DNA of 64,000 nt, from positions 372,001 to 436,000 of the forward strand of contig NZ_CP098732.1 in NCBI RefSeq assembly GCF_023824315.1, written 5' to 3'. A program made the translations under genes and the position numbers. The notes under the pieces were generated by a model. That model did no database searches and was not told where the DNA came from. It saw only the letters and a list, made by a program, of their open reading frames with translations. This DNA comes from Acinetobacter tibetensis (GTDB lineage Bacteria > Pseudomonadota > Gammaproteobacteria > Pseudomonadales > Moraxellaceae). Below, in pieces: positions 18,356 through 63,354 of this stretch (positions are counted from its first letter, which is position 1; every line of letters starts with the position of its first letter).

Positions 18356-18613
18356 ATGAGCGAAGAAATGACGCTTGAAGAACGCAAAGTGATTTATCGT
18401 GCACGTCGTGGTTTAAAAGAAATAGATGTGTATTTTGACCCGTATGTTCGAACTTATTATTTAGCGGCATCTCCTGAAGAAAAAGCGTTATTTGCAGAAT
18501 TAGTTGAACAAGAAGACCCTGATTTACTCGATTGGTTTATGGAAGTTGGCGAACCGCCACGTGCTGAAATTAAGACGTTTATTCTTAAATTAAAGCATTA
18601 CGTTCATGGCTAA
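18356..18613 (+). CDS. sdhE: FAD assembly factor SdhE (succinate dehydrogenase)
   Basis: 85 residues, the usual SdhE/CptB size. RARRGLKEIDVYFDPYV contains the RGxxE motif needed for covalent flavinylation of SdhA, and EKALFAELVEQEDPDLLDWF is the conserved helical part. It acts in the cytoplasm as a chaperone for FAD attachment to succinate dehydrogenase or fumarate reductase. Its end overlaps the next gene by eight bases, the common sdhE-ygfX pairing of gammaproteobacteria. Confidence 0.93.
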   Translation: MSEEMTLEERKVIYRARRGLKEIDVYFDPYVRTYYLAASPEEKALFAELVEQEDPDLLDWFMEVGEPPRAEIKTFILKLKHYVHG

Positions 18614-18989
18614 CACCGCATATTATTTGAAACGCAGTCGCGTGGCGATTGTGTTTCAGATCGGTCTATTGTTTCTGATTCAATGTTTAGTTTCGGTTTT
18701 ATTGCCCGTGTGGTTGGCAGTGCTTATTTTGACTATGCTGCTATTTTCATTTTGGATGCAATTGAAGCGCGCTACACTGCATTATTTTGAAGCATTTTCG
18801 ATAGATGAGTGGTCTATTCGGCCAACCGATCAAGGTGTGCAGCACATGCGACTTACGCGAGTGGTTGATCATCATTTTTATATTGTGCTTTATTTCCAAC
18901 AACAATCATCTTGTAGCTATGTCATTTGGTATGACCAGTTAACACTCAAAGACTGGAAAAAACTGAAATTGTTGGCAAAAATGTTCTGA
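18606..18989 (+). CDS. YgfX-like inner-membrane protein
   Basis: 127 residues. Two hydrophobic segments at about residues 13-30 and 33-50 are followed by a soluble part with WSIRPTDQGVQHMRLTRVVD and SYVIWYDQLTLKDWKKLKLL. The short length, two membrane helices and eight-base overlap with sdhE match YgfX (CptA). E. coli YgfX has been described as a toxin of a toxin-antitoxin pair with SdhE and also as a membrane partner in flavoprotein assembly; the sequence does not decide between these. Confidence 0.75.
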   Translation: MANTAYYLKRSRVAIVFQIGLLFLIQCLVSVLLPVWLAVLILTMLLFSFWMQLKRATLHYFEAFSIDEWSIRPTDQGVQHMRLTRVVDHHFYIVLYFQQQSSCSYVIWYDQLTLKDWKKLKLLAKMF

Positions 18990-19119
18990 TTGTTAGACAG
19001 TTAATAATTTTATTAATTTAATTAAAATATATAAAACAATAATTTAATATTAATTCGTTAATGCTTTGTCTGACAAAAAATTAATTTATTGGCATAAAGT
19101 ATAAATTGTTAGACAATTT
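18990..19119. promoter_or_regulatory. three TTGTNNNACA-type dyads before the heptamer array
   Basis: TTGTTAGACAG (18990-19000), TTGTCTGACAA (19066-19076) and TTGTTAGACAA (19106-19116) lie in an AT-rich gap. The last extends to AAATTGT-TAG-ACAATTT (19103-19119), a 7+3+7 perfect dyad; the middle one extends to TTTGTCTGACAAA. Spacings are 76 and 40 bp. They look like repeated binding sites of one regulator controlling the unit downstream. No clean sigma70 promoter is visible between them. Confidence 0.5.
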
Positions 19120-19153
19120 TTGCAGATACATCTGTGTTTTCTTTGTACATTAA

Positions 19154-19300
19154 AAGCACCAAGCACCAAGCACCAAGCACCAAGCACCAAGCACCAAGCA
19201 CCAAGCACCAAGCACCAAGCACCAAGCACCAAGCACCAAGCACCAAGCACCAAGCACCAAGCACCAAGCACCAAGCACCAAGCACCAAGCACCAAGCACC
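19154..19300. repeat. tandem array of 21 copies of a 7-bp unit
   Basis: The unit AAGCACC is repeated exactly 21 times (147 bp) without any mismatch, followed by a partial copy AAGCA. The array starts about 35 bp after the third dyad and ends 23 bp before the start codon of a small membrane peptide. Because 7 is not a multiple of 3, each gain or loss of a unit shifts reading frames through it, and it changes promoter-to-gene spacing by less than a helical turn. The perfect identity implies recent or ongoing slippage. Confidence 0.97.
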
Positions 19301-19323
19301 AAGCAGCGAACGAGGAGATCAGT

Positions 19324-19425
19324 ATGATTTTTCCAACGTGGTTGTTTCTAATGGTAGCGATTGTTTTGGCAATTGTTATAGGACGTTTAGGAACTGTGCT
19401 GAAGGATCGATTTGCACAAACATAA
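19324..19425 (+). CDS. 33-residue single-pass membrane peptide
   Basis: MIFPTWLFLMVAIVLAIVIG followed by RLGTVLKDRFAQT. One hydrophobic helix covers about residues 4-20, and the tail is basic, predicting an N-out/C-in or cytoplasmic-tail topology by the positive-inside rule. GAGGAG at 19312-19317, six bases before the ATG, is an excellent ribosome binding site. A terminator follows 26 bp after the stop. The frame stays open upstream through the heptamer array to a TTG at 19120, giving a possible 101-residue form, but that start has no ribosome binding site. I recognise no family; function unknown. Confidence 0.75.
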   Translation: MIFPTWLFLMVAIVLAIVIGRLGTVLKDRFAQT

Positions 19426-19450
19426 AGCCCATTGGGCGTTCATTTAATAG

Positions 19451-19488
19451 GTAGCATGTGCTGAACCGTCGCAATGCTACTTTTTTTT
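19451..19488 (+). terminator. rho-independent terminator after the small peptide gene
   Basis: GTAGCAT (19451-19457) pairs with ATGCTAC (19474-19480), with inner TGC/GCA pairing after a one-base bulge, followed by eight Ts (19481-19488). Confidence 0.8.
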
Positions 19489-19646
19489 GCCCAAAATTTA
19501 ACAATCCTGCTGCTAGAGTCAATTTTTATCTTTATTTTTCATGGCAAAGTAATCCTTTGAATTAGAGTAAATACTCTTTTATTCGAAAATAGCTTCTGCT
19601 ATGTTTACTGCGAAGGACACAAACAAAAAATATAGAGGACAGGAAG

Positions 19647-20711
19647 ATGTCGCAAGTCCAGAAAATTGGCCAAGGTATGGCGATTTTAATGATTACAACA
19701 ACTGTACTTACAGGATGTTCGCATGTAGTGAAATCTGGCGCGAATGTCGCTTTAGGATTTAGCGAAAAGCATATTGTTCCGCCCATTTTAGCCATGGAAG
19801 ATGCGGATATGGTGTGTAATTCGGGGAATGCGTTAACGCCTGCAATTATGTCAACCCAAGATATGGGGGCAGACCCGACGCGTATAGCAATTTTACTTTA
19901 TTCTGCTGCGGGTACATGTGCTGAAAATAGAGCACTCGATGCTGAACTCCGTTATTTACGTGCGTCTAAAGCAGGACAGGTCACAGAAGCTCAAGATGCG
20001 CGTATTGAGCAAAAGCGTTGGTCGGCTGTAGCAGCACAGCGTCAATATGCCGGTTATCAACTTTTAGAGAAGCGTTGGCAAGCCAAGTATCAGCAAGAAC
20101 TGGGTGAGAGTTGCCCAAAAATGAAAAGTGATATTGATCAGACCGTGTATTTACTGGGCTTGATCAGTGGCGTACAAGCCATGACCAATGACATTAATGC
20201 AGGTGGTTCTGTCAATGTACCGAAAGATATTGCCGCAATTGTAGAGCGCGGTATGGTGTGTTTGAACAATGAAAAGTTCTGGGGGGCACCTGAGGCAACA
20301 CGTGCGGCAATTTGGACTTTGCTGCCAGGTGCTGGAGATGGTAAACCAGATCCATACCAAACCCTAAAACAATCCATGCAAATTGGTGAGCAAAAAGGTG
20401 TACGCTTATCTCATGCCTTATATGCGGTAGCAGCCCAAGCCAGTGGTGATGATGCCAAAATTCGTGATGCCTTAAAACAGTTTGCAGCGGCACGTTCAGA
20501 TGAAAAGCCTGTTAATCCCCAGTTCAAGTTGATTGACAGTATGGCGGCCAGTATGGTGCAAGGTATTTCAGACCGCTATTGGACGGAACACACAGGAAAA
20601 CGTACAGCCGATGATGGTATGCAGAAATTCTGGGATGAACAGGAAGATAGTTCGGGTCTGGATGATTTATTCAATGCCTCGGAAGGTACAGCAAGTACTG
20701 CAAAAGAATAG
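19647..20711 (+). CDS. lipoprotein resembling the TRAP-associated TatT component
   Basis: 354 residues. A lipoprotein signal peptide ends in the lipobox LTGC with Cys24. The rest is mainly helical with repeated Ala-rich segments (LYSAAGTCAENRALDAELRY, HALYAVAAQASGDDAKIRDALK), consistent with a TPR-like solenoid. The family resemblance to TatT, the periplasmic trimeric TPR lipoprotein linked to some TRAP transporters, rests mainly on this architecture and on the TRAP permease gene two positions downstream. It has four or more cysteines in the mature part. RBS AGGAAG directly precedes the ATG. Confidence 0.6.
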   Translation: MSQVQKIGQGMAILMITTTVLTGCSHVVKSGANVALGFSEKHIVPPILAMEDADMVCNSGNALTPAIMSTQDMGADPTRIAILLYSAAGTCAENRALDAELRYLRASKAGQVTEAQDARIEQKRWSAVAAQRQYAGYQLLEKRWQAKYQQELGESCPKMKSDIDQTVYLLGLISGVQAMTNDINAGGSVNVPKDIAAIVERGMVCLNNEKFWGAPEATRAAIWTLLPGAGDGKPDPYQTLKQSMQIGEQKGVRLSHALYAVAAQASGDDAKIRDALKQFAAARSDEKPVNPQFKLIDSMAASMVQGISDRYWTEHTGKRTADDGMQKFWDEQEDSSGLDDLFNASEGTASTAKE

Positions 20712-57835: not shown

Positions 57836-58274
57836 TGAAAAAAGCAGATTTTGAATATTAATTAACCGTATAAACATTATTTTCGAATAAATTTTAAAAA
57901 GGGTATTGCAACGGGTTGGGAATACTGTAGAATGCACATCCATCGGCGGTGATGTTGATTAAAACTTGTTGAGAAACAAGGATTTAGCCCAAGCGGTAGA
58001 ATCTGGAAGTCTTGAAGAGGTTTAAAAATAATTAACAAAACCTGTTGACTTTAACTTAGATTAGAGTAACATAGCCGACCTAGCTTGATGATGACGAGTC
58101 ATCAAGAAGATCATTAAGAGATTATGAAGAACAACTTGTGTGGATTTTTACTGATTGATTGATCGAAATTATTTTCATTGATTGATGGTAGAAATTACTC
58201 GAAGTTTATTTGAGAAATATTTGTCAGAAAATTGATGAGCCAAGATTGGTACCCTTATAGGTACTACTGATTTT
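57836..58274 (+). promoter_or_regulatory. rRNA operon promoters and leader
   Basis: P1: TTGCAA (57906-57911) and TAGAAT (57928-57933), 16-bp spacer. P2: TTGACT (58045-58050) and TAACAT (58067-58072), 16-bp spacer, with a GCCGACC discriminator. A hairpin CTTGATGA/TCATCAAG (58084-58106), in the position of boxB, precedes a possible boxA. Bases 58124-58150 pair with 59831-59858 downstream of 16S to form the 16S processing stalk. Confidence 0.7.

Positions 58275-59811
<1,537 letters not shown>

Positions 59812-60460: not shown

Positions 60461-63354
<2,894 letters not shown>

Follow-up and report, generated by a model that had tools for sequence, protein, structure and literature searches.

Operators of FadR-type GntR regulators have the form TGGTCNGACCA, and CsrB and RsmZ are RNAs that bind CsrA. 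PhrS represents Pseudomonas small RNAs that carry a short ORF; to our knowledge, its known regulator is not of the GntR type. The closest described relative of the repeat considered here is found in Haemophilus influenzae. According to extracts of PMC8262952, the 5' leader of hmw1A carries the heptamers directly after the functional P2 promoter, and a larger number of repeats gives less transcript and less protein. A literature search found nothing on phase variation by heptanucleotide tandem repeats in Acinetobacter.

The window, the whole 64,000-nucleotide stretch of Acinetobacter tibetensis DNA that was analysed, contains a comparable heptamer array within a unit at 18990-19490. In the reading we favour, with a probability of about 0.6, this unit is a conserved gene with a transcript of its own, encodes a single-helix membrane protein of 33 residues and is probably under the control of a GntR/FCD regulator; its leader was expanded by slippage in one lineage, and the repeat copy number may set its output.

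Organization of the unit

The unit consists, in order, of three TTGTNNGACA[AG] dyads, the hexamer TACATT, the heptamer array, GAGGAG, a 33-codon ORF and a terminator (Table 1). The dyads, ribosome binding site, ORF and terminator of the preliminary description were all located in the window, the first dyad being imperfect and beginning directly after the stop codon of the upstream ORF. The promoter-like elements, the peptide and the terminator are all conserved in relatives, in agreement with the earlier view of the region as a self-contained unit. The ORF that follows downstream, at 19647, has no match in Pfam. Elsewhere in the window, a two-copy 27-bp repeat occupies 58144-58197, just upstream of an rRNA operon (16S, 58275-59811; 23S, 60461-63354).

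Table 1. Features of the unit and its upstream neighbours (window coordinates)
Feature	Position	Strand	Evidence or remark
Upstream neighbour, SdhE-like ORF (Sdh5 family)	18356..18613	+	Pfam PF03937, E 3.1e-18
Upstream neighbour, CptA/YgfX-like ORF	18606..18989	+	Pfam PF07254, 22.9 bits, below cut-off 27.3
Dyad 1, TTGTTAGACAG, imperfect	18990..19000	.	Similar dyads in many relatives
Dyad 2, TTGTCTGACAA	19066..19076	.	
Dyad 3, TTGTTAGACAA, proposed GntR/FCD regulator site	19106..19116	.	29 bp upstream of hexamer
-10 hexamer TACATT, predicted	19146..19151	+	Position conserved
Heptamer array, 21.7 perfect AAGCACC copies	19154..19305	+	Tandem Repeats Finder, script, leader comparison
Shine-Dalgarno GAGGAG	19312..19317	+	Six bases before ATG 19324
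33-codon ORF, one hydrophobic stretch, motif GRxGTxLK/R	19324..19425	+	Genus matches, dN/dS, hydropathy
Intrinsic terminator, hairpin and eight T	19450..19488	+	RNA model R1
Terminator apex GTGCTGAACCGTCGC, conserved	19458..19472	+	27 aligned sequences

Predicted promoter and leader

The unit was compared across the genus using one genome per species. The 150 loci that carry the terminator apex reduce to 119 distinct segments, some genomes being represented twice (for example, by L004 and L193). The last TTGTNNGACA[AG] dyad is situated 28-29 bp upstream of a TANANT hexamer in 114 of these segments, including that of the window, the distance being 29 bp in 107 segments and 28 bp in the other 7; the strict dyad is absent in five of the 119. 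In 38 segments a TANANT also lies 48 bp from the dyad, within the leader, and no other spacing occurs in more than three. About 6 nt separate the hexamer from the predicted 5' end, which in most segments reads ACCAACAGC or a close form. The conserved spacing thus places the predicted transcript start at the first bases of the array.

The leader is 26 nt long in seven segments of six close relatives and 166 nt long here, which equals 26 + 20 x 7. On this comparison, the unit has kept the dyad-hexamer spacing and the ribosome site of its relatives, and growth is confined to the predicted leader. The earlier suggestion that a change of one unit shifts spacing is not supported for the promoter, where the distance from dyad to hexamer is the common 29 bp. 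A 101-codon frame extends from TTG 19120 to 19425 and crosses the array in frame with the peptide. Its product, the reading frame of which had been expected to shift with repeat number, is unlikely to be made because the TTG lies upstream of the predicted transcript start.

A sigma-70 scan does not list TACATT, and no -35 match precedes this hexamer. The scan does give a promoter-like match, TTGGCA-17-GACAAT, overlapping dyad 3. If this were the promoter, dyad 3 would be an operator for repression, and transcription would start upstream of the array.

The heptamer array

The 21 perfect copies of a 7-bp unit described earlier are present. Tandem Repeats Finder reports a period of 7 with 21.7 copies, 100% matches and no indels, and a script found every base of the 152-base tract to be the same as the base seven positions further on. 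Read in phase with the predicted start at about 19158, the array unit is ACCAAGC. At least three tandem AAGCACC units occur in one of the 175 genus genomes, that of the window, with no second occurrence in that genome and none in the other 174. A search of the 150 apex loci for perfect tandem repeats of 5-30 bp in at least three copies found the 21-unit array here only; its other matches were TTTAA x3 (L079) and AAAATT x4 (L108 and L162). The closest relatives, judged by the unit, are those of the A. tandoii and A. kanungonis group. From these genome comparisons, the array is confined to one lineage, while the gene itself is conserved. The perfect purity of the array suggests that it is young.

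Tuning of the expression level in the manner of hmw is plausible by analogy, if somewhat short of an even chance, and neutrality of the array is nearly as likely. A neutral array, a serious contender that we nevertheless consider improbable on balance, would have arisen recently by slippage in a leader able to accommodate changes of length, having no regulatory effect and no selected variability. Its presence in a single genome of 175 and its purity both fit such an origin. The full RNA, array included, is no more stable in its predicted fold than shuffled sequences (z 1.5; 94 of 100 shuffles as good), so that the leader may stay open and translation may be unaffected; the RNA with the array removed is likewise no more stable than its shuffles (z -0.74). 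However, the leader heptamers beside the hmw promoter do change expression, according to extracts of PMC8262952, and the gene described here seems to be maintained, its ribosome site and ORF being intact. An array seen in one genome of 175 could also be an assembly error, which is less likely than a neutral accident.

The small membrane peptide

A search at E 0.01 matched the 33-residue peptide in 115 of 149 genus genomes. Its ORF is present in 103 of the 119 segments: 99 have a GRxGTxL ORF by motif (L087 among them only at the upstream ORF), and four more have ORF variants recognised by eye (L020, L108, L112 and L198). Inspection by eye of the 16 segments without an intact ORF found degenerate frames in four (L086, L093, L102 and L115) and no recognisable frame in 12. 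The expected conservation of the frame in relatives is therefore borne out by the 103 segments and fails in the 16. The median dN/dS is 0.22, calculated from 2,665 pairs with dS between 0.05 and 1.5 drawn from 79 distinct 24-codon cores. By this codon-based measure, purifying selection acts on the peptide.

Two ORFs, a longer one followed by one of about 33 residues, are found in 38 of the 119 segments. This form includes A. pittii, A. nosocomialis and A. seifertii, as well as genomes assigned to A. calcoaceticus and A. haemolyticus. Two genomes with the two-ORF unit (G020 and G090) have in addition a second locus (L269 and L270) with three tandem small ORFs for GRxGT membrane peptides.

Outside the genus, profile matches occur in 6 of 299 family genomes. 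Four belong to genus g10, with E values from 2e-9 to 5e-8, and the other two are weak (2e-4 and 8e-3). In two g10 loci (L271 and L272) the peptide gene comes with a pair of dyads spaced 41 bp apart, the second of which precedes TACATT by 28 bp; examined by eye, neither contains a terminator apex of the type found in the Acinetobacter unit.

The peptide has no match in Pfam, a PDB profile search gave none up to E 1, and the PHROGs matches are weak (best E 0.017). Its longer relatives are hypothetical proteins where they are named, except for one contaminant record named sdhE. The word sdhE is absent from the main text of PMC3976366, PMC11472050 and PMC12802169.

A candidate GntR/FCD regulator

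A dyad in the genome of the window is situated 102 bp upstream of a gene with GntR and FCD domains. This gene, near 2,657 kb of the genome (L207:725-1420), has the same dyad upstream as the unit. The gntR gene is found in 164 of the 175 genus genomes at E 1e-60. Among the 30 best-scoring loci of the 164, 29 have ATTGTCNGACAA upstream of gntR, and these 29 are the only occurrences of TTGTN3ACAA in 110,778 bases. Since the unit carries the dyad that precedes 29 of these 30 gntR genes, the GntR/FCD regulator probably controls the unit through its dyads. Of the sampled genomes, 119 have gntR, and 106 of these give strong terminator matches; the seven that lack gntR give none (Fisher p 9e-7, uncorrected for shared ancestry, from counts made on lists).

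Genome-wide, the dyad is not more frequent than its control, with 36 against 48 in the genome of the window and 12 against 21 and 25 against 29 in two relatives. Shared neighbours of the dyad were compared at the sites with fetched loci in the genome of the window and in G061 and G154, by domain scan in the first and by BLASTP in the two relatives. In all three genomes the dyad adjoins purT and a gene for a PF10118 hydrolase. The genome of the window and G154 further share the neighbours csrA, an AraC-type gene and one for a phosphoribosyltransferase, and what we take to be a carA-like gene is shared by G061 and G154. From the dyad upstream of gntR and these shared sites, we propose that the regulator is autoregulated and that its gene set includes purT and possibly csrA.

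The terminator and constraint at the RNA level

RNA model R1 matches 109 of 126 sampled genus genomes (a count from lists), and 106 of these matches have an E value no higher than 5.4e-15. Outside the genus it gives weak matches in 17 genomes, with a best E of 2.3e-5. A simple terminator scan, which takes loops of 3-8 only, lists none in the unit. In 27 aligned sequences, themselves chosen by the apex, the apex is invariant or nearly so except at one variable base. The 15-base apex core was the criterion by which segments were selected, and the nearly invariant positions flanking it were not. Allowing up to one mismatch, the apex is found in 150 of 175 genomes and a reversed control in about 63 of 175. 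A Fisher test on these one-mismatch loop matches (p 2.7e-7) was discarded because of the control, and the RNA model was used instead. Covariation gives slight support for the terminator, with one compensatory pair in four of 40 sequences, and none for a short stem in the ORF, in which the consensus fold pairs the GGA codon of Gly23 with no compensatory changes.

The complement of the apex, taken as a 10-mer, has 13 exact sites in three genomes, three of which are the unit itself. Among the other ten, no start site common to the genomes was found by eye. The site at L283, in the genome of the window, follows the ATG of a 54-codon frame; frames below 80 codons were skipped by the filter of the target search.

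Three codons of the peptide gene are nearly constant among 80 distinct ORFs, which are related and do not represent independent counts. The codon of Gly20 is GGA in 78 and that of Gly23 in 74, the rest being GGG. Residue 27 is encoded by AAG in 64 and AGG in 16, so that an [AG]GGA motif occurs in all 80. In the 25 long ORFs of the window, GGA accounts for 13% of glycine codons, AAG for 20% of lysine codons and AGG for 1.5% of arginine codons. ORF1 of the two-ORF species has all three GGA motifs in 24 of 24 cases. Retention of GGA at the nucleotide level, together with terminators that lack an intact ORF in 16 of 119 segments, suggests a role at the RNA level, through CsrA-type binding, Shine-Dalgarno-like pausing or another partner.

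Four divergent species (loci L203-L206, in G013, G144, G131 and G143) keep the peptide and dyad-like sites and have another terminator, with the apex TCTCCC, and most GGA codons absent: Gly20 is GGA in 0/4, Gly23 in 2/4, and the third motif occurs in 0/4. In G131 and G143, the sequence just upstream resembles the end of an acyl-CoA dehydrogenase gene.

Constraint of this kind would be expected if the unit were mainly a regulatory or dual-function RNA, whose GGA motifs bind CsrA or whose apex pairs with targets, the peptide being secondary. This is unlikely, with perhaps a minority chance of being right. The motif counts of 78, 74 and 80 of 80 stand out against the low codon usage of the window, ORF1 retains the motifs throughout, terminators occur where the ORF is not intact, and a dyad lies upstream of csrA in the genome of the window and in G154. 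Yet the dN/dS of 0.22 shows constraint on the peptide itself, and the four species with the other terminator keep the ORF and dyad-like sites with few GGA codons. Moreover, the apex complement has no conserved target in the three genomes, the segments lacking an ORF were picked by their loop, so that the constancy of the loop is partly a product of selection, and Shine-Dalgarno-like pausing could account for the GGA codons too. Extracts of PMC5568370 describe two predicted RsmA-related small RNAs in strain ADP1. The locus of the unit is not mentioned in the extracts of PMC3976366, PMC11472050, PMC12802169, PMC5568370 or PMC8262952; the unit may have been annotated earlier as a small RNA. A single Acinetobacter RNA combining all of these functions, with control by a GntR/FCD regulator that perhaps also acts at csrA, a membrane protein, CsrA-type GGA codons, a pairing loop and a slippage-tuned 5' heptamer, is a long shot.

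Slightly less probable still is a type I toxin-antitoxin system, in which the hydrophobic peptide would be a toxin silenced by an antisense RNA. The peptide is short and hydrophobic, 38 of 119 segments have two ORFs, and tandem paralogues exist at the second locus of some genomes; however, the four minus-strand matches given by a generic promoter scan of the region all fall outside the ORF, and the conserved promoter spacing is activator-like. Membership of the PhrS family (RF01673) was rejected as scarcely credible, since the full-length Rfam match is weak (16.8 bits, E 0.3, against a gathering score of 37) and just two of 13 loci matched at E 5, both with 16.8 bits and one being this unit.

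Proposed mechanism

In the reading that we prefer, the GntR/FCD regulator would bind the dyads and control the unit, and the transcript would end at the terminator with the conserved apex. The first seven bases of the transcript, ACCAAGC, would have been copied by slippage until there were 21 units, and the untranslated leader would have grown from 26 to 166 nt. The copy number of the array would then set the level of mRNA or protein, as it does for the hmw genes of H. influenzae. We infer transcription and its start site, regulation by GntR, translation and the effect of copy number on mRNA or protein level.

If copy number does tune the gene, heptamer contingency control would no longer be confined to surface adhesins and would include an Acinetobacter gene for a small protein or a regulatory RNA. 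Apart from any tuning, the analysis defines a small membrane protein common in the genus with no Pfam or PDB match and proposes a candidate regulator and part of its regulon. The peptide's glycine and lysine/arginine codons are also under an unusual constraint at the nucleotide level.

Comparison with known systems

The unit shares with PhrS the layout of a short RNA in which a ribosome site and a small hydrophobic ORF (that of PhrS as read from the model consensus) precede a terminator, but it scores below the threshold of the family. With CsrB and RsmZ it shares several conserved GGA motifs; unlike theirs, the motifs of the unit lie in the coding region, where placement in hairpin loops is not evident. 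The dyad is a palindrome of the same layout as FadR-type operators, TTGTCNGACAA, and lies upstream of a GntR/FCD gene, whereas the letters of its half-sites differ.

The closest resemblance is to hmw1A and hmw2A, as described in extracts of PMC8262952. There the unit is ATCTTTC, the gene encodes an adhesin of Haemophilus influenzae, and both variation in copy number and its effect on expression are established, whereas the array described here comes from the sequence of one genome. The first hmw repeat overlaps the -10 box, while the array of the unit begins after a two-base gap. The likeness to hmw drawn in the preliminary description nevertheless extends to position, since the hmw1A heptamers lie downstream of P2, where the array is predicted to lie here. 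Both systems have a 7-bp unit, in 13-24 copies in the hmw strains and constructs described in these extracts and 21 in the present array. The hmw repeats directly follow the promoter within the 5' leader, and the Acinetobacter array is predicted to do the same.
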